This document shows, piece after piece, positions 6,876-29,289 of a DNA stretch of 29,289 bases (position 1 is the stretch's first letter; every line of letters begins with the position of its first letter). Source of the stretch: a virus. The stretch is taken from IMG/VR virus record IMGVR_UViG_3300025168_000441, positions 1 through 29,289 of that record, one strand, 5' to 3'. The translations under genes and the position numbers were made by a program. Below the pieces are notes generated by a model. That model had not been told where the DNA came from, did not search any database, and worked only from the letters and a program-made list of their open reading frames with translations.

Positions 6876-7297
6876 TGGTATTAGGCAAATTATTTGGAGG
6901 TAAAACAATTCAAGCAGTTGGAAATGTTATAGATGAACTGCATACTTCTGAAGAAGAACGAGAAACTCTAAAATTAAAATTTGCCGAAATAGAAGCCAAG
7001 CTAAAAGAAAAACAGTTAAGCATTAACTTAGCTGATGCTCAAAGCACTGCTGGAGGAATATCAGGAGCCATTCAAAGAATATGGAGACCTCTTATTGGTT
7101 TTAGCTGTGCTTTAGCAATTTTTTGGGAATATGTTTTAAAACAATTTTTATTATTTTTAATAGCAACTTTTAATTGGGACACAAAACCTTTACCAGAATT
7201 AGACATGGGAACTTTGATGCCTTTAGTAATGGCCTTATTGGGAATGGGTGCTTTGAGAACTTACGAAAAATCAAAAGGCATTAATAGAGATAAATGA
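6875..7297 (+). CDS. holin, 3TM / gene-transfer-release type (140 aa)
   Basis: The N-terminal ~60 residues are charged and helical (cytoplasmic coiled coil). An IQRIWRPLIGFS segment leads into two or three hydrophobic helices at ~75-100 and ~112-128, followed by a short charged C-terminus. The soluble helix, the WRPL motif and the multi-span end match the GTA_holin_3TM family (PF11351 from memory), which releases gene transfer agents and many marine phages. It starts on the last base of the 39-aa peptide gene, and its end overlaps the lysozyme ATG by four bases (ATGA). It would permeabilise the inner membrane for the endolysin. Confidence 0.7.
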   Translation: MVLGKLFGGKTIQAVGNVIDELHTSEEERETLKLKFAEIEAKLKEKQLSINLADAQSTAGGISGAIQRIWRPLIGFSCALAIFWEYVLKQFLLFLIATFNWDTKPLPELDMGTLMPLVMALLGMGALRTYEKSKGINRDK

Positions 7298-7719: not shown

Positions 7720-7852
7720 ACCAGGATTATATGCGAATATAAATGCTAGAAAAAAAGCAGGGACAAGTAGGTCTAAGAAAAAATCAACTATAACACCTAA
7801 AGCTTATGCTAATATGAAAGCTGGGTTTCCTAAGAAAAAGAAAAAGAGTTAA
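7712..7852 (+). CDS. 46-aa basic protein with a poly-Lys tail
   Basis: The start overlaps the lysozyme stop by eight bases. The protein begins MAKPGLYANINARKKAG, contains a second partial copy of the motif (AYANMKAG) near residues 31-38, and ends in a run of five Lys and Ser. Proteins starting MAKPGLYANI are, from memory, common small phage proteins of unknown function near lysis or structural genes. The internal duplication and high positive charge suggest contact with nucleic acid or with polyanionic cell wall or membrane. It is the first of four consecutive basic micro-proteins. Confidence 0.65.
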   Translation: MAKPGLYANINARKKAGTSRSKKKSTITPKAYANMKAGFPKKKKKS

Positions 7853-7854
7853 TT

Positions 7855-7968
7855 ATGGTAAAAAAATTAAAAGGTAATCAAAAAAAAATAGATGCAAACA
7901 AAGATGGTAAGATAAGTAAAGTAGATTTTAAAATATTAAAAAATAAAAAAAAGAAAAAGAAATCATGA
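7855..7968 (+). CDS. 37-aa EF-hand-like micro-protein with poly-Lys tail
   Basis: Residues 13-24 form a textbook EF-hand calcium loop: Asp at loop position 1, Asn at 3, Asp at 5, Gly at 6, Ile at 8, Ser at 9 and Asp at 12 (DANKDGKISKVD). The loop is flanked by short Lys-rich helices, and the protein ends in six Lys and Ser. A single EF-hand in such a short chain would probably pair with another copy (dimer) or with a partner. The gene begins two bases after the preceding stop, and its end overlaps the next ATG by four bases. Similar single-EF-hand peptides appear, from memory, in other marine phages. The role is unknown. Confidence 0.7.
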   Translation: MVKKLKGNQKKIDANKDGKISKVDFKILKNKKKKKKS

Positions 7969-8111
7969 AAGGTGTACCTCATTATACAAAAGATGGAAAA
8001 CTCTTTAAAGGCAAAACACATAAAATGCCTAATGGATCATTACATACTGGAGCTAAACACACAAAAAATTCTCAAGTATTAAGTCATAAAAAGCCTAAGA
8101 AAAAGAAGTAA
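7965..8111 (+). CDS. 48-aa basic phage protein (HYTKDGK / HTKNSQ type)
   Basis: ATGA overlap with the EF-hand gene and TAATG overlap with the following gene. The chain carries two spaced blocks, GVPHYTKDGKLFKGKTHKM and GSLHTGAKHTKNSQVLSH, then a Lys-rich tail (KKPKKKK). Short proteins with this pattern of paired His/Thr-Lys motifs are recurrent, uncharacterised phage proteins. No membrane segment is present. The seven His residues could bind metal, but this is speculation. It belongs to the basic micro-protein cluster behind the lysozyme. Confidence 0.65.
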   Translation: MKGVPHYTKDGKLFKGKTHKMPNGSLHTGAKHTKNSQVLSHKKPKKKK

Positions 8112-8379: not shown

Positions 8380-8826
8380 ATGATTAAATATATCGCTTCA
8401 ATACCAGTAGTGTTGTCTGTGTTAGCAGCATGTTATGGTGCTATTAACTACACAAGTAAACTTACAAATCAAATTGATGAAAGCACTACTACTATTGCTA
8501 TATTAAAGTTAGAAATAACAAACTTAGAGCAACGTGTCTACGGCGATATAGATAATATACACAGGACTTACACAGATAAAACAGGAAGAAACTCTAAGAA
8601 CTATGCGGACGCTAGAGAAGAACTTGTAAAAGAAATGGCTGAAATGGCAACATGGGTAGGTAGGCTTGAGGGAATATTATATGCATTGCGTGATGGTTCG
8701 TACAAATTAGCATCACAAGCAGAGTACCAAGCGTTAGAAGAACTTGTTAGAGGTAACACAGATTCTCTTAGACAAATAGGATATGATATAAAAGAAATTG
8801 AAAGAGTAGCATCGGGCGGTTATTAA
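8380..8826 (+). CDS. membrane-anchored coiled-coil protein (148 aa)
   Basis: Residues ~4-24 form one N-terminal hydrophobic helix (IASIPVVLSVLAACYGAI) followed by a long charged helical region with heptad periodicity, mainly residues 30-145. This N-in/C-out topology with a periplasmic coiled coil is that of an inner-membrane spanin subunit (Rz-like), although spanins are too divergent for identification by eye. It is followed by an exported protein gene that overlaps by one base, the arrangement expected for an i-spanin/o-spanin pair. However, the next protein is not a clear lipoprotein. Function is inferred from topology and location. Confidence 0.55.
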   Translation: MIKYIASIPVVLSVLAACYGAINYTSKLTNQIDESTTTIAILKLEITNLEQRVYGDIDNIHRTYTDKTGRNSKNYADAREELVKEMAEMATWVGRLEGILYALRDGSYKLASQAEYQALEELVRGNTDSLRQIGYDIKEIERVASGGY

Positions 8827-9499: not shown

Positions 9500-9628
9500 A
9501 TGTTAGGAATTACTTATTCTTATATTAAACAAAGTAAGGATTATAAAAATTATAAACCTAAATCCATTCTTTCCAGTTATCGCCAGTTATTGAATTGGCT
9601 AAAGAAAGTTTGTTTTTTAAACTACTAA
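9500..9628 (+). CDS. possible 42-aa protein overlapping the end of the convergent helicase gene
   Basis: An ATG lies two bases after the previous stop, and the frame runs for 42 codons (MLGITYSYIKQ to LKKVCFLNY). It enters the 3' end of the opposite-strand helicase gene for 71 bases. In favour are the tight operon spacing and the mix of aromatic and basic residues. Against are the absence of a ribosome-binding site and a second half that is antisense to a conserved helicase end. It may be chance. Confidence 0.3.
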   Translation: MLGITYSYIKQSKDYKNYKPKSILSSYRQLLNWLKKVCFLNY

Positions 9629-11027
9629 ATATTTTTTCATCAATAGTTTTAGGAGTTACAAAGTCAATGTATGTTACATTATTTTTTTGACCAATTCTAT
9701 GCGGTCTATCTTCTGATTGTAATCTAGCTTCTAAGTCATATGTATTAGCATAATATATTACAGTTTTAGCTGCAGTTAAAGTTATGCCATAACCACCCAT
9801 ACGAGGATTAGCTATAATATATTTAAAAGTACCATTTTGAAAATCATTAATAATTTTTTGTCTATCTTCTGATTTAGTTTCTCCAAAGTAAGTTGCTACT
9901 GGTATTTTAAAATGCTCTATTAATTTAGATTGTATTTCTTTTATAGACCTTTTATAATTAGCCCATATTATTACTTGACCTTCAGTTTCCTCTAACACTT
10001 GAACTAATTCGTTTAATCTAGGATTAACTCCAGGTATTGCTTCTTCAGTACCGTCATCATGTTTAACAAATCCGCATAAGACTTGATGAAGTCTTAGCAA
10101 TCTAGTTATAACTAAAGGAGCAGTTATAGATTTTTCTTTAGATAACTCAACATACGCTTTCTTACGGAGTGTTTCATATATTCTTTTTTGATCAGGGGAA
10201 AATTCTATTTCTCTTTTTTGATATAACTTATCTGGTAAATCTAAACAATCGTCTTTCGTTACTCTAAACATATGCGCTTTAATAGATTGCTGAAGTTCAT
10301 CTAAGTTTTGATAATCGACTACTTCGTGAAATGTTTTCATATTAATAGTTCTTCTTCGTAACACGCAGTATCTATTTCGAAATCCATAGAAGCTACAGTT
10401 TAAAACATACTCTGATAAAAAACTCATTTGAGTATAAATATCAACAGGACTTTGAGTTATTGGAGTTCCTGTTAACACTCTTCTAAATTTAGATTGCTTT
10501 GATAATTTTAAAATATTTTTAGTTCTTCTCGCAGTTCTATGTTTAATGGTACTTGACTCATCAACTACGACTAACGCTTTATGAACATTAAGAAAACGTT
10601 GAGTATAATTTAACCCTTTAGTTGTACTAAAAGCTTCTACATTAATAATGAATATTTTTAATTTATGAGTATCTTCCTGTAAAAAATCTTTTAATCTTTT
10701 AACATTAGATTTAGTTTCAACTGGTTTCCAAAGTTCTATATGCGAATATTCCATTACATCATCTGGCATATGAATTGGTATTTCTGCTTGTTCCCAGTTT
10801 CTATATACACCTTTAGGCGCTATAATCACTGCTGAATTAATTGAACCTTTTCTATATAGATAAGCTATATTATCTACTATTACTTTAGATTTACCAGTAC
10901 CTTGTTCCATAAACAAAGCATAATATTCTTTATCCCTACTGATATTAAAAGCATCGAGTTGATGTTTAAATGGTTCAGTTTTAAATTTAAAGTCCTTAAC
11001 TTTATCGTCACTAAATATGATTTTCAT
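9558..11027 (-). CDS. SNF2/SF2-family DNA helicase or translocase (489 aa)
   Basis: ATP-dependent DNA translocase. In order: a KHQLDAF block (motif Q-like) at ~21-27, Walker A GTGKS at 43-47, motif Ia region IIAPKGVYRNW at ~68-78, the Walker B variant VVDESS around 154-159 (DExx box), motif III LTGTP at 185-189, motif IV VIIWANY at ~352-358, motif V MGGYGITLT at ~410-418, and motif VI LQSEDRPHRIGQ at 436-447. The Gln-x-x-Asp-Arg-x-His-Arg-Ile-Gly-Gln pattern is diagnostic of SNF2-type enzymes. No extra nuclease domain is present. It is the only clear - strand gene in the window, read toward the late genes from a divergent intergenic region. It probably acts in replication fork remodelling or recombination. 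Confidence 0.9.
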   Translation of the reverse strand: MKIIFSDDKVKDFKFKTEPFKHQLDAFNISRDKEYYALFMEQGTGKSKVIVDNIAYLYRKGSINSAVIIAPKGVYRNWEQAEIPIHMPDDVMEYSHIELWKPVETKSNVKRLKDFLQEDTHKLKIFIINVEAFSTTKGLNYTQRFLNVHKALVVVDESSTIKHRTARRTKNILKLSKQSKFRRVLTGTPITQSPVDIYTQMSFLSEYVLNCSFYGFRNRYCVLRRRTINMKTFHEVVDYQNLDELQQSIKAHMFRVTKDDCLDLPDKLYQKREIEFSPDQKRIYETLRKKAYVELSKEKSITAPLVITRLLRLHQVLCGFVKHDDGTEEAIPGVNPRLNELVQVLEETEGQVIIWANYKRSIKEIQSKLIEHFKIPVATYFGETKSEDRQKIINDFQNGTFKYIIANPRMGGYGITLTAAKTVIYYANTYDLEARLQSEDRPHRIGQKNNVTYIDFVTPKTIDEKIFSSLKNKLSLANSITGDNWKEWI

Positions 11028-11446: not shown

Positions 11447-12020
11447 TGTAGATATTTTTCAATCACTAGAAGAAGATGCGAAAAGTCAGAAGGAAATTCC
11501 TAATGACGAGAAGTTTAAACAACTCAATACTCTTGCGAAACGTTTTATTGATACTAAAGACGATATTTATGTAGCAGAAGAAAACGTAAGTAAGTTAAAA
11601 GAGAGTTTAAAACAGATCAAGGAGAATGACCTCCCTGATATGATGAGTTCTTTAAATATGGATCAGTTTAAATTGACAGACGGTACAGTTATCTCAGTAA
11701 AAGATGACGTATTTGCTTCAATTAAATCTGATAAGAATGTCGAAGCATTACAGTGGCTAGACGATAATGGATTAGGAGATATTATTAAACATAAAATCTC
11801 TGTATCTTTTAATCGTGGAGAACATGAAGATGCTGAGAAGTTTAAAGATATGTTTGGCAAATCATTTAAACAAGATTTAGATGAGAAGTCAACAGTCCAT
11901 CCTCAGACATTAAAAGCAACAGTTAAAGAAATGGTCCATGGTGGCCAAACTTTACCTGATAATCTTTTTAATGTATACGAGGCTAAGATTGCTAACGTAA
12001 AAATACCGAAAGGAGAATAA
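11439..12020 (+). CDS. replication-operon coiled-coil protein of unknown function (193 aa)
   Basis: A good AGGAGAAA ribosome-binding site lies inside the end of the previous gene. Residues ~25-75 form a charged coiled coil (AEENVSKLKESLKQIKE). A compact region with KLTDGTVISVKDDVFASI and a helix with ALQWLDDNGLGDIIK follow, then Lys-rich strands to the end. No catalytic motif is evident. Tight spacing to the SSB-like gene (1 base) suggests that the products work together in replication or recombination. Family not recognised. Confidence 0.55.
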   Translation: MADVDIFQSLEEDAKSQKEIPNDEKFKQLNTLAKRFIDTKDDIYVAEENVSKLKESLKQIKENDLPDMMSSLNMDQFKLTDGTVISVKDDVFASIKSDKNVEALQWLDDNGLGDIIKHKISVSFNRGEHEDAEKFKDMFGKSFKQDLDEKSTVHPQTLKATVKEMVHGGQTLPDNLFNVYEAKIANVKIPKGE

Positions 12021-12021
12021 A

Positions 12022-12780
12022 ATGGCTGATACGCAAGTAGCGAAGAAAGCAAACTCAGCACTGAGTATTCCTGCAGAGGATTTACTCGCTGACGTTGGAA
12101 GAGGACTTGAAAAAGTTTCTTCTGACGATATGACGATACCGAGGTTAGCTATCATACAAAGTGGTAGTCCTCAAAGAAAAAAGAAAGACGATAAATATAT
12201 AGATGACGCAGATGAAGGAATGGTATTCAATACTGTTTCTAATGCTCTATATAAAGATACTTTCTATGTAGTACCGTGCGAATTTGAGAAATTATTTATC
12301 GAATGGGTACCACGAGAGAGTGGAGGTGGTTTAGTGACGATGTACAACACCTCTAATAAACCGCAGGCAAAAAAAGAAGAAAATGGCAGACGTTTTTTAC
12401 TAGAAAATGGTAATCAATTAGTCGATACTGCTCAACATTACGTTATGGTAATAGGTAAAGATGGTTCATATGAGCCAGCAGTAATGTCAATGTCATCTTC
12501 TTTATTAACAGTGTCTCGTAACTGGGTAACTAGAATGAAGTTACAACGAGAAAATGTTAATGGAAAGTTAATCGAGCCACCTACTTTTTATTACAAGTGG
12601 CCAGTAACTACTATTGAGAAAACAAACTCAGATGGCTCGTGGTTTATTTATAAAATAGGAAACCCCGAACCAATAGGAGATGCTGATTTATATCAAGCAG
12701 CTAAAAGTTTATCTGATTCTGTAAGAAAAGGAGTAGCTACTGCTGACGTAAATACTGACAACGATAATATACAATTTTAA
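12022..12780 (+). CDS. putative single-stranded DNA-binding protein (252 aa)
   Basis: Strong AAAGGAG ribosome-binding site ten bases upstream. The central ~150 residues alternate beta-strands with aromatic and basic residues (TFYVVPCEFEKLFIEWVP, FYYKWPVTTIEKT), as in OB-fold-like DNA-binding proteins. The C-terminus is an acidic tail ending in Asp/Asn residues and Ile-Gln-Phe (DNDNIQF), closely resembling the DDDIPF-type tail by which SSBs recruit replication proteins. The position directly before the primase fits. The SSB call rests on the tail, composition and context; I do not recognise a named family with certainty. Confidence 0.5.
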   Translation: MADTQVAKKANSALSIPAEDLLADVGRGLEKVSSDDMTIPRLAIIQSGSPQRKKKDDKYIDDADEGMVFNTVSNALYKDTFYVVPCEFEKLFIEWVPRESGGGLVTMYNTSNKPQAKKEENGRRFLLENGNQLVDTAQHYVMVIGKDGSYEPAVMSMSSSLLTVSRNWVTRMKLQRENVNGKLIEPPTFYYKWPVTTIEKTNSDGSWFIYKIGNPEPIGDADLYQAAKSLSDSVRKGVATADVNTDNDNIQF

Positions 12781-14280
12781 ATGTTATCTCAAGAGTTCTT
12801 TGACTTATTCAAAGGTCTTGAGCGTGCTCATGGCCGTTACGATTTAGCTACGGAAAATCAAGACGGCCAAAAGCAAGGGGGAACTGCACGTACAGTTCAA
12901 GAAACACTTACATTGCACGAATGGGATTTACACCTAAAAGGTGAACGAGGTCTTGGTGTTATACCGATTCGTGACGATAATAAAGTTTATTGGGGAGCAA
13001 TAGACATTGATGTATATGATTTAGACTTAGAAGAATTTAGCAAGAGCCTAGGCTCATCACCAATTATACCATGTAGAACTAAAAGTGGAGGATTACATTT
13101 ATATGTTTTCTTTAAAGAATCAATATTAGCTAAAAGTGTAGTTCCTAAATTAAGAGAAATAGCTACATTATTAGGACATGCTAGTGCAGAGATATTTCCT
13201 AAACAAATTAAAATAATATCTGAAAGAGGAGATGTCGGTAACTGGATAAACATGCCATATTTTGGTGGAGAATATTCTACACGATATGCTTTTTACAATG
13301 GAAAAAGATTAAATTTAGAAGAATTTATAAGCACAGCAAAAGAGAAAAGATTAAGTAATGTTAACGAAATTAAGATTCCTAATTTTAAAAAAGAAAATAG
13401 TGAACTATTACCTGACGGTCCTCCATGTTTACAATATTTAGTTAAAACAGGAATACCCGCAGGGTCAAGAAATAATGCATTATATAATCTAGGAGTATAT
13501 GCTAAAAAAGCTTATGCAAACGATTGGGAAGAAAAAGTAGAGGATTATAACTTAGACTTTTTAAACCCTCCATTAAAATCAAGAGAAGTACAGACTGTTA
13601 TAAGTTCTTTAAATAAAAGGTCTTATAATTATATGTGTAGCGAACCACCTATTCAACCTTTCTGTAATAGGTCGCTATGCGTATCTTGTAAGTTTGGAAT
13701 ATCTGAGAATGGAACTATGCCTAGAATAACAGGGATAACTAAAATAGTAACAGATCCTCCTACTTATTTTTTAACTGTTGACGATTTAAGAATTGGTCCA
13801 TTGGAATCAATAGATATTCTTAATCAAAAAAACTTTCAACGTGTGGTATTTGAGCATATAGATAAAGCTATTCCTTTAGTTTCTCCTCACCTATGGATTG
13901 AAATGATGAACGATTTAATTGCTAAAGTAGAGATAGTTGAAGCAACTGCTGATTCTTCTAATAAAGGTAGATTATGGGAGTTATGTGAAAGATTTTGTAC
14001 TGGATCAAGTTCGTCAGATGCTATGGAAGATATACTAAGAGGTCAATCTGTTACTATTAAAGGTGAAACTATGTTTAGAATTAACGATTTTATGGAATTT
14101 CTTGAGAAGCATAGATTTAAAGAATTTAAATTACATGAAATTACTGCTCATCTTAAAGAAAGAGGAGCTAAACATAACCCTAAAAAAGTAAAAGGTAAAC
14201 ATGTTAACATATGGATTATTCCAGAGTTCGAAAAACAAAGAGAAGATTTTACGGAGCCAAACATTGAGGAGGTATTTTAA
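12781..14280 (+). CDS. archaeo-eukaryotic primase (AEP), TOTE-like, with PriCT-like and Cys-rich parts (499 aa)
   Basis: It synthesises primers for DNA replication. AEP motifs are visible: Asp75-x-Asp77 in WGAIDIDVYD (metal-binding), Ser102-Gly-Gly-Leu-His106 in RTKSGGLHLY (nucleotide-binding His motif), and a third acidic strand around AEIFPKQ (137-141). A PriCT-like helical segment follows (GIPAGSRNNALYNLGVY, 224-240). A Cys cluster C286/C295/C300/C303 (CSEPPIQPFCNRSLCVSC) suggests a zinc site. The last ~130 residues are helical, perhaps winged-helix (FRINDFMEFLEKH). There is no fused helicase; the phage encodes helicases separately. It begins at the base after the SSB-like stop. The combination resembles primases of TOTE conflict elements and of many marine phages. 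Confidence 0.8.
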   Translation: MLSQEFFDLFKGLERAHGRYDLATENQDGQKQGGTARTVQETLTLHEWDLHLKGERGLGVIPIRDDNKVYWGAIDIDVYDLDLEEFSKSLGSSPIIPCRTKSGGLHLYVFFKESILAKSVVPKLREIATLLGHASAEIFPKQIKIISERGDVGNWINMPYFGGEYSTRYAFYNGKRLNLEEFISTAKEKRLSNVNEIKIPNFKKENSELLPDGPPCLQYLVKTGIPAGSRNNALYNLGVYAKKAYANDWEEKVEDYNLDFLNPPLKSREVQTVISSLNKRSYNYMCSEPPIQPFCNRSLCVSCKFGISENGTMPRITGITKIVTDPPTYFLTVDDLRIGPLESIDILNQKNFQRVVFEHIDKAIPLVSPHLWIEMMNDLIAKVEIVEATADSSNKGRLWELCERFCTGSSSSDAMEDILRGQSVTIKGETMFRINDFMEFLEKHRFKEFKLHEITAHLKERGAKHNPKKVKGKHVNIWIIPEFEKQREDFTEPNIEEVF

Positions 14281-27281: not shown

Positions 27282-27697
27282 GAATTCCCTTCTGCGAGAA
27301 CTGCAAAGATTTATATACAATAAAAGTCGTATTCGAAGGTGAAGAAAGCGAGGTAGATTGTAATAAGTGTACTTATGACCGTCTATCTCGCCAGTTACAA
27401 GAAGGACGTATCACTAAATTATTTGACGTGTTAGAAGGTCAACGTATCCAGCTTCTTGATCATTGGCACGCAGTAAACGATGACGAAGTAAGTTATGCAT
27501 TCGAAGATGGTACCGTTAAAGAGTACAACCGTCATTATAAAAACGGACATATTATAGGATACTCGATAGAGATACAACTTTATAAATATCATGATGAGTT
27601 AGACGAGTGGGATAATAAATTAATCTTTACGGACGCTGACGCAAACTGGCACGATAAACTTTACGAAAACATGAAAGTTATAGTTTATGACCGATGA
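27278..27697 (+). CDS. zinc-ribbon-like protein of unknown function (139 aa)
   Basis: AGAGGAGC ribosome-binding site. The N-terminal 32 residues hold two Cys pairs, PFCENCKD (5-12) and VDCNKCTY (26-33), consistent with a small zinc knuckle or rubredoxin-like site. The rest is beta-rich and acidic (VSYAFEDGTVKEYNRHYKNG). The two CxxC pairs suggest nucleic-acid or protein contact; no named family is recognised. Confidence 0.55.
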   Translation: MRIPFCENCKDLYTIKVVFEGEESEVDCNKCTYDRLSRQLQEGRITKLFDVLEGQRIQLLDHWHAVNDDEVSYAFEDGTVKEYNRHYKNGHIIGYSIEIQLYKYHDELDEWDNKLIFTDADANWHDKLYENMKVIVYDR

Positions 27698-28157
27698 TTT
27701 ATTAGATATCCCTGATTTTTTACGCAACTTAGATGACGAGCCGAAAGTTAAAAAAACATGGGTCGAGCCTATCTTTGAAACGAGTGAACTTAAACGAGAT
27801 GACGGCACTACTCTTATTCGAAACACTATGATAATGGAGGGATATTACATGGTCGATGGAGTAAGGGAAAAGAAAGAAAAGCCTAAAACTAATTGGACTG
27901 AAAAGAAACCTAAGAGGAGTAATGGCAAGAAACGAGAGCAGTGGCTCACGGACATCATACGCACTAATCCTGATTTAAATCGTGTTGAACTGTATAAACA
28001 TATTAGAGATAATAATTTAGAGCCTCATGAAGGATTTGTTAATCATAAGAATTTCCAAGCACATTTACGAAGTATTTTGATAAGATTAAAAAAGAATGGT
28101 ATTTTAATGTTAAAGAATAATAGATACTTAATTAGAAACAGAAAAAATAGCGTTTGA
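27687..28157 (+). CDS. putative DNA-binding protein with a winged-helix-like C-terminus (156 aa)
   Basis: The first ~90 residues are acidic, then Lys-rich and probably disordered (EKKEKPKTNWTEKKPKRSNG). The C-terminal ~65 residues alternate helices and a final hairpin (LTDIIRTNPDLNRVELYKH, AHLRSILIRLKKNGILML, NNRYLIR) in the order helix-helix-helix-strands typical of winged-helix DNA-binding domains. It overlaps the previous gene by 11 bases. It is the last gene before the structured gene-free stretch, so it may be a regulator; this is inference. Confidence 0.5.
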   Translation: MTDDLLDIPDFLRNLDDEPKVKKTWVEPIFETSELKRDDGTTLIRNTMIMEGYYMVDGVREKKEKPKTNWTEKKPKRSNGKKREQWLTDIIRTNPDLNRVELYKHIRDNNLEPHEGFVNHKNFQAHLRSILIRLKKNGILMLKNNRYLIRNRKNSV

Positions 28158-28180
28158 CTAGTTGTTATTGTAATGTTTCT

Positions 28181-28413
28181 AGCTAGAGAGTACGTACCTC
28201 TTGATCAGGAGTAAGATTCTCTAGTGCCACTGGCAGCGTGGTATCGGGTGTTGAAGGTATACGTCCTTAATTCAAGCCAGTATAAAAATGCTATGTAAGT
28301 AGCAATGAAGCAAAGAGAAGAACCTTACTTGAGCAGCTGAGACACTGCGCAAGATAGAGTGGAGTAAGTCAATTAATTATAAGCTAAGTGATTGTTTATT
28401 CCTTGCTCCACTC
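28181..28413 (+). ncRNA. probable structured non-coding RNA in a ~340-nt gene-free stretch (28158-28496)
   Basis: No credible ORF occupies 28158-28496, unlike the rest of the window. GC content rises to about 48% in parts (28201-28260, 28321-28360) above the AT-rich flanks. Stems that can form in order: CTAGAGA 28183-28189 with TCTCTAG 28218-28224, with an inner CTCTT/AGGAG hairpin. ACTGGC 28229-28234 with GCCAGT 28276-28281, enclosing TTGAA/TTCAA. CTTGAGCAG 28328-28336 with CTGCGCAAG 28345-28353 (one A.G mismatch). GAGTGGAGTAAG 28357-28368 with CTTGCTCCACTC 28402-28413 (12 bp, one G.T). Strand is inferred from neighbours. It does not look like tmRNA, RNase P RNA or a group I intron. The boundaries are approximate. 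Confidence 0.55.
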
Positions 28414-28431
28414 AAATAATCGTGGTCGTGG

Positions 28432-28481
28432 ATTAGTTAAAGAGAGTGAAAGGTGAACCAACAGTAACTCTCGCCACTAAT
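28432..28481 (+). promoter_or_regulatory. two-part hairpin just upstream of a ribosome-binding site
   Basis: ATTAGT 28432-28437 pairs with ACTAAT 28476-28481, and inside it GAGAGT 28442-28447 pairs with ACTCTC 28467-28472, both perfect. The AGAAAGGA ribosome-binding site follows at once, before the ATG at 28497. It could be the 3' domain of the structured RNA or a translational control element. No U-run follows, so it is not a typical terminator. Confidence 0.45.
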
Positions 28482-28496
28482 AGAAAGGAAGATATT

Positions 28497-28691
28497 ATGG
28501 ACTCACATCAGATTATTGACGGCCTTGAAGATAAGATAACGATGTTAGAAAAAGATAATAAAAAGCAACGTGATTTACTTATTTTTATCCTTCGTGACTT
28601 AGATAAGCACTATAATGTAGAAGTTAATCACACTGATAGTATTTTAGGTATAATTAGGTATAAATTAGATTATATTTTAAATAAACCATAG
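28497..28691 (+). CDS. 64-aa coiled-coil protein
   Basis: The ATG at 28497 is chosen because AGAAAGGAAG lies seven bases upstream; an earlier in-frame GTG at 28446 is inside the hairpin region. The chain starts MDSHQIIDGLEDKITMLEKD and is mainly a charged helix with heptad repeats, then a short hydrophobic end. No family recognised. Its translation may depend on the hairpin upstream. Confidence 0.55.
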   Translation: MDSHQIIDGLEDKITMLEKDNKKQRDLLIFILRDLDKHYNVEVNHTDSILGIIRYKLDYILNKP

Positions 28692-28702: not shown

Positions 28703-28879
28703 ATGATAAAAACAACTGCTATATTTAGTGTTACTATTACAGTTGCACTATCTACTTATATATTTAGTCATGACATATTTAACGCAAACGCTGTAGCGTG
28801 GATTCATTACATCGTACCCTTCAGTGTCGGTATGATATTTGCAGGAAGTAGTATTATGTTATTTTTAGATAAATCATGA
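28703..28879 (+). CDS. 58-aa two-span membrane protein
   Basis: AGAAAGGAAAA ribosome-binding site upstream. Two hydrophobic helices (TTAIFSVTITVALSTYIF at ~4-21, and WIHYIVPFSVGMIFAGSSIM at ~33-52) are separated by a short polar loop. It ends in an ATGA overlap with the next gene. A holin-like or membrane-takeover role is possible; no family is recognised. Confidence 0.55.
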   Translation: MIKTTAIFSVTITVALSTYIFSHDIFNANAVAWIHYIVPFSVGMIFAGSSIMLFLDKS

Positions 28880-29289
28880 ATATATTTTACTTACATCCAC
28901 ACCCTTTAGTCGCAGCACATTATCACTGCGATAAGCATGTACCGAAGATGATATTAGAATCAGCTCAGATGTTAAGTATAGTCGCACGAACTCATGGCTT
29001 TGACGTTGGCTATAATATGAATGTCAATGGTGCTTTTTCCAAGCATCCCGCTACATTATGGACAGGCCAATCTCGTAGACACTACGATTTTTTATGCGAA
29101 TTAGCAGATTACTTATGTGACGAGTTCTACATACGATTTGGCTCTAAAGAACATAAAACTAGAGCTAAAATTGCAGAACTTAATACAGACGATATACGTC
29201 AAAAAATACCAGATACAGGTTGGCATCCTCCACCTCAATGTATGCCAGAAGAATATAAAGGTGCTGACCCTGTAGAAGCTTACAGAAAG
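28876..29289 (+). CDS. conserved phage protein, 3' end beyond the window (138+ aa)
   Basis: ATGA overlap gives the start; the frame is still open at the window end. The chain reads MNIFYLHPHPLVAAHYHCDK, then KHVPKMILESAQMLS, SKHPATLWTGQS, FLCELADYLCDEFYIRFG and a PPPQCMPEEYKG block. This set (HVxKMILExAQMLS, HPxxxW, EYxxRxG, PPxxMP) is a recurrent phage protein of unknown function that I remember from many tailed phages. Occasional annotation as a pyrimidine-dimer glycosylase is not supported by any match to T4 DenV that I can see. Confidence 0.7.
   Translation, partial: MNIFYLHPHPLVAAHYHCDKHVPKMILESAQMLSIVARTHGFDVGYNMNVNGAFSKHPATLWTGQSRRHYDFLCELADYLCDEFYIRFGSKEHKTRAKIAELNTDDIRQKIPDTGWHPPPQCMPEEYKGADPVEAYRK

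Follow-up and report, generated by a model that had tools for sequence, protein, structure and literature searches.

A probable structured RNA with changing hairpins and a candidate anti-Shine-Dalgarno loop in a gene-free stretch of a phage genome

The largest stretch without a gene in a 29,289-base phage sequence (one IMG/VR record, analysed over its whole length and referred to here as the window) very probably encodes a genuine structured RNA, as judged from compensatory base changes among its relatives. The stretch comprises 339 nt, positions 28158-28496, between the stop of a 156-aa open reading frame at 28157 and the ATG of the following gene at 28497. Our best explanation, which we hold tentatively, is that it is a fast-evolving, hairpin-modular phage RNA that may act on translation through an anti-Shine-Dalgarno sequence in the loop of one helix, P2; the case for an independent non-coding RNA is almost as strong. 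We regard the fold as well supported and infer the mechanism. The same RNA occurs in three other IMG/VR phages (L002, L003 and L026). Three further records (L027, L029 and L108) form a more distant group, in which the leader and the position are common, the hairpins are different and the core is absent. The parts of the stretch, and the gene that precedes it, are as follows.

27687-28157, plus strand: upstream gene, 156 aa, with a predicted winged-helix C-terminal domain (open reading frame; homologues in all seven records)
28153-28174, plus strand: leader TTTGACTAGTTGTTAxxxGTAA, common to both groups and single-copy in the window (alignments of both groups)
28182-28225, plus strand: hairpin H1, with a variable stem, arms 28182-28191 and 28216-28225 (pair probability 0.98)
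28201-28207, plus strand: palindromic loop UUGAUCA of H1, constant in four homologues
28229-28281, plus strand: helix P2, ACUGGC (28229-28234) with GCCAGU (28276-28281) (hand alignment)
28264-28268, plus strand: anti-Shine-Dalgarno sequence UCCUU in the P2 loop, its CCUU invariant in the four close homologues
28289-28304, plus strand: small hairpin of the window and L002 only, absent from L003 and L026 (pair probability 0.95)
28308-28327, plus strand: near-invariant, 16S-like core AAGCAAAGnGnAGAACCUUA (alignment)
28328-28353, plus strand: hairpin H3, formed by 28328-28336 with 28345-28353, its loop containing the constant UGAGACA (MAFFT, RNAalifold)
28357-28413, plus strand: hairpin H4, 12 bp in the window, arms 28357-28368 and 28402-28413 (pair probability 1.00)
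28390-28421, plus strand: possible pseudoknot of GAUUGUUU (28390-28397) with AAAUAAUC (28414-28421) (inverted-repeat search)
28432-28481, plus strand: hairpin H5 (fold), a module present in the window and absent from L002, with no copy elsewhere in the fetched loci
28482-28489, plus strand: ribosome-binding site (RBS) AGAAAGGA of the next gene, ATG 28497 (sequence)

The stretch had been picked out in an earlier, sequence-only reading as the largest gene-free interval, about 340 bases without an open reading frame. This description holds, the sole frame of at least 40 aa inside it being an extension of the next gene that starts at a GTG at 28446. When the window was tiled in 342-nt segments (85 tiles), the tile of the gap had the highest GC content, 0.395 (39.5%), as that reading had said of the local composition; because the runners-up reach 0.392, the elevation is only modest. 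The plus strand of 28158-28496 folds to -93.1 kcal/mol, with a z-score between -2.5 and -3.6 according to the shuffles used, and sixth rank among the 85 tiles. This folding is unusual, but it is equalled or surpassed by several coding tiles at 11.7-13.1 kb and so is not unique. The strongest folding z-scores in the window, down to -4.5 and beyond that of the gap, lie at 11742-13109, in coding tiles over a 252-aa gene (phrog_2402) and primase-like genes.

Two stems named in the sequence-only reading, of 12 and 9 bp, correspond to H4 and to the 9-10 bp outer arms of H1. Perfect long stems alone are matched by the shuffled sequence in 70 of 200 dinucleotide shuffles, i.e., they do not go beyond chance in the window copy. 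One might therefore regard the stretch as a recombination scar or as chance hairpin-rich filler, the more so as hairpin modules are gained and lost among the relatives. We consider an absence of function very improbable, however, given that paired changes keep the stems in four homologues and that loops and core are near-invariant. For the structure it is this comparative evidence from homologues, and not the stem lengths in the window, that we regard as decisive.

Relatives were sought with the flanking proteins, the core and the leader as queries. A profile of the leader matches all seven records and nothing else convincing, and in each record the RNA is present at one place only. An annotated phage collection yielded homologues of neither the RNA nor the upstream 156-aa protein. 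A prokaryote genome collection gave no relative of the upstream protein and a single leader match, in the bacterial genome L112 (Paceibacterota), which we judge to be chance, the related gene and the RNA both being absent there. A loose pattern search for the core gave 19 matches, of which 17 were unrelated and due to chance. Between the window and L002, over window positions 28227-28691, the RNA core is 98.4% identical, which is no proof of constraint because the next open reading frame is equally identical (98.4%). The 58-aa frame just downstream is 74% identical and the upstream frame 91%; this pattern suggests a recombined block, within which H5 would have been gained or lost. A mobile origin of the hairpin modules was considered and set aside, as no module recurs elsewhere in the fetched loci.

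That the RNA folds is supported because the relatives change bases in matching pairs and thereby keep the stems, as the proposal of a structured phage RNA had implied. The basis consists of four distinct close sequences and three of the second group, too few for a full statistical covariation test. In a hand alignment made with each homologue's own helices, double compensatory changes occur in H1, P2, H3 and H4, and broken pairs are few. H1 shows one to four such changes per pairwise comparison of the four homologues, with no broken pair in its outer stem, and is the clearest case by eye: the UUGAUCA loop is constant on four different stems. P2 has two double compensatory changes relative to L003 and L026 and one broken pair in the hand alignment only, and in the minimum-free-energy fold of the window the segment has other pairing partners. 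At the place of H4, L026 has another stem sequence, with three double compensations.

Since the hand alignment leans towards structure, the count was redone on an unaided MAFFT alignment of the four close homologues. There, 84% of cells pair, versus 30-45% when the partners are slid by 1-3 columns, a control that somewhat favours the tested structure because the latter came from the window sequence. Six pairs are changed on both sides, a number reached by 4 of 500 column shuffles. H3 contributes two of the pairs changed on both sides and has 92% of its cells paired. RNAalifold, choosing its own structure, recovered H3 and most of H4 but missed the outer H1 stem. Extra hairpins are gained and lost among members in the interval from H4 to the RBS, where L026 can form an H-type pseudoknot of 9 bp + 8 bp, stronger than the possible one at the equivalent place in the window. 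As for the strand, strong inverted repeats hold G.T more often than A.C (15 versus 8), which is suggestive only of a plus-strand RNA; where L027 and L108 differ from each other in their 13-bp stem, the plus strand retains U.G or G.U pairs, consistent with an RNA of that polarity.

The sequence-only reading could name no RNA class, and none emerged from the searches. Rfam 15 gave no match at gathering score in the window or its relatives, and none credible at E up to 5; ARAGORN found no tRNA or tmRNA in the stretch or its relatives. A tRNA, a tmRNA or a known RNA family was rejected on these grounds. Like GOLLD and ROOL (PMC12286853), the structured phage RNA proposed here combines constant with variable parts and has a palindromic loop through which subunits could be joined. 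Those RNAs are about 600-800 nt long and lie in a tRNA neighbourhood, whereas the RNA here measures 270-340 nt, about half or less; the loci have no tRNA genes or tRNA island, and there is no Rfam match. The stretch thus adds a probable structured phage RNA outside any Rfam family. It also makes a good case of RNA evolution, with stems replaced wholesale, loops and core fixed, and hairpin modules gained and lost at one spot.

Despite its differing 3' modules, the RNA runs directly into an RBS in every member, and the CCUU of the P2 loop is kept in otherwise diverged surroundings. This loop is complementary to the RBS over 9 bp in both L003 and L026, over 7 bp in L027, over 6 bp in L029 and over 5 bp in the window, L002 and L108. 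In L003 and L026, the predicted fold pairs the loop CCUUUCUAU with the following gene's RBS, AUAGAAAGG, at a probability above 0.9; because these two phages are related, their 9 bp count as one event. In L027, the loop CUCCUUU faces the RBS AAAGGAG. The RBS next to the RNA ranks first in complementarity in L003, L026 and L027, among the 30, 28 and 10 genes of those loci, respectively. In the window it ranks 20th of 38 and in L108 10th of 12, and in L023, which shares its record with L002, another complement takes first place. Members also differ in the next gene, a further point against control of this RBS.

The analysis establishes conservation, compensatory changes, co-occurrence with the winged-helix gene and, in some members, complementarity to the RBS. 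In the model that we put forward, the plus strand of the stretch would be transcribed within a polycistronic phage mRNA and would fold in a lineage-specific manner. A constant leader would be followed by hairpins and pseudoknots with rapidly evolving stems, the loops and the core remaining fixed. The anti-Shine-Dalgarno sequence of P2 would pair with the RBS just downstream as a long-range pseudoknot and might keep the next gene closed until the fold rearranges, with the winged-helix protein as a putative binder of the RNA. If the pairing is real, it would constitute a translational control device of a phage lineage.

Analogous arrangements are known. preQ1-II and SAM-II are translational riboswitches with pseudoknots that sequester the Shine-Dalgarno sequence, a hairpin loop pairing with it downstream. 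The P2 loop is likewise predicted to be able to pair with a downstream Shine-Dalgarno sequence; unlike in those riboswitches, there is no Rfam match and the downstream gene is not constant, and any ligand would be hypothetical. The leader pseudoknot of T4 gene 32 and similar elements are autogenous phage translational operators. Set beside what is described of T4 (PMC535899, PMC3014915), the element reported here resembles the gene 32 operator in being a pseudoknotted phage mRNA element beside the gene of a nucleic-acid-binding protein, with translational control proposed. It differs in following the conserved protein gene instead of preceding it, in being far longer and in having no sequence in common, and binding is here putative.

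The protein in question has no Pfam or PHROG match. Its AlphaFold2 model shows a winged-helix-like C-terminus (pLDDT 80-88 there, 71 overall), and against PDB folds it gives weak matches only, the best to winged-helix domains. Its gene precedes the RNA in 7 of 7 records, while the downstream gene varies. This constancy speaks for an independent, stable non-coding RNA that starts near the leader and works in trans or as a particle; it might dimerize through UUGAUCA, be bound by the winged-helix protein or pair with several RBSs of the phage. The loop of H1, UUGAUCA, is a palindrome that stays constant while its stems change, and in the OLE and GOLLD RNAs the subunits are held together by palindromic kissing loops, including GAUC (PMC12286853). 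Several RBSs of the same phages carry AUAGAAAGG, and in L027 and L108 a strong hairpin followed by five U precedes the next gene. However, the RNA abuts the next RBS with no space between, the leader lacks a promoter with a -10 box, and the window lacks a terminator. A promoter scan found no sigma-70-type promoter at the leader: its TTGACT resembles a -35 box, but no -10 box follows. Nor is the leader a repeated phage promoter motif, being single-copy. In view of the RBS ranks, the varying next gene, the constant upstream gene and the weak fold matches, we give translational control through the P2 loop somewhat less than even chances and the independent RNA about one chance in three; a trans-acting RNA is no better supported than an intercistronic element acting in cis. 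For the putative regulator, decoy or sRNA sponge of the sequence-only reading, the candidate features are the anti-Shine-Dalgarno loop and a weakly 16S-like segment.

Two other readings start from the same neighbourhood. The leader is the most conserved part across both groups, is single-copy and adjoins the gene of a putative DNA-binding protein, and it contains an imperfect palindrome, best seen as GTTACCGGTAGC in L026; leader and hairpins might thus be a DNA element, i.e., a binding site, an operator or a replication origin for that protein. We consider this unlikely. The constant parts beyond the leader are loops and core rather than repeats of one site, and the excess of G.T over A.C in strong stems and the plus-strand wobble pairs of the L027/L108 stem also argue against it. 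The L023 locus shows no GC-skew switch, although a binding site would need none. Slightly less probable still is a structured 3' end or attenuator of the upstream operon, with hairpins that stop transcription or protect the mRNA end. The same gene always precedes the stretch, and L027 and L108 have the hairpin with its U-run; yet L029 lacks this hairpin entirely, the window has no terminator-like site, and a terminator needs neither constant loops nor a near-invariant 20-nt core.

The core itself resembles E. coli 16S rRNA 966-984, with 18/19 positions in L002 and L026 (E about 0.001), a match reached by 0 of 300 mononucleotide shuffles. It is weaker in the window (12 nt, E 0.11) and in L003 (17/19, E 0.44). 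Given the many possible comparisons, we treat this likeness as a lead and not as a finding. A fragment derived from 16S rRNA was rejected, as the core and the anti-Shine-Dalgarno sequence come in the opposite order to that in 16S rRNA and only one of them is near significance. An improbable extension would combine the anti-Shine-Dalgarno loop, the 19-nt 16S-like segment, a dimer through the palindromic loop and a winged-helix partner in a phage RNA that acts in trans on the ribosome or on many messages; were it true, it would be a new route for phage influence on translation.

Further features of these loci deserve mention. A 164-aa protein encoded downstream (window 28877-29289; L002:6127-6621) has 96 matching stretches in IMG/VR phages and no Pfam match, and the sole large minus-strand gene of the window, at 9558-11027, encodes an SNF2-type helicase. 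Beyond the end of the window, the relatives have, downstream of the same genes, a second non-coding stretch of about 210 nt that is strongly conserved (L002:7158-7375, L003 about 7786-7999, L026 about 7022-7237). It starts with CCTGTATATATAGAG, ends with CTCTATATAATAAAGG, has no Rfam match and occurs in six records of IMG/VR. At L002:8010-8110, L026 about 7850-7950 and L003 about 8640-8690 lies a third conserved stretch, TTAGCTGAAAA...GACCATTAGGnAAGTTGAAACGATACATACTACCTATAAAAG, with no obvious gene.
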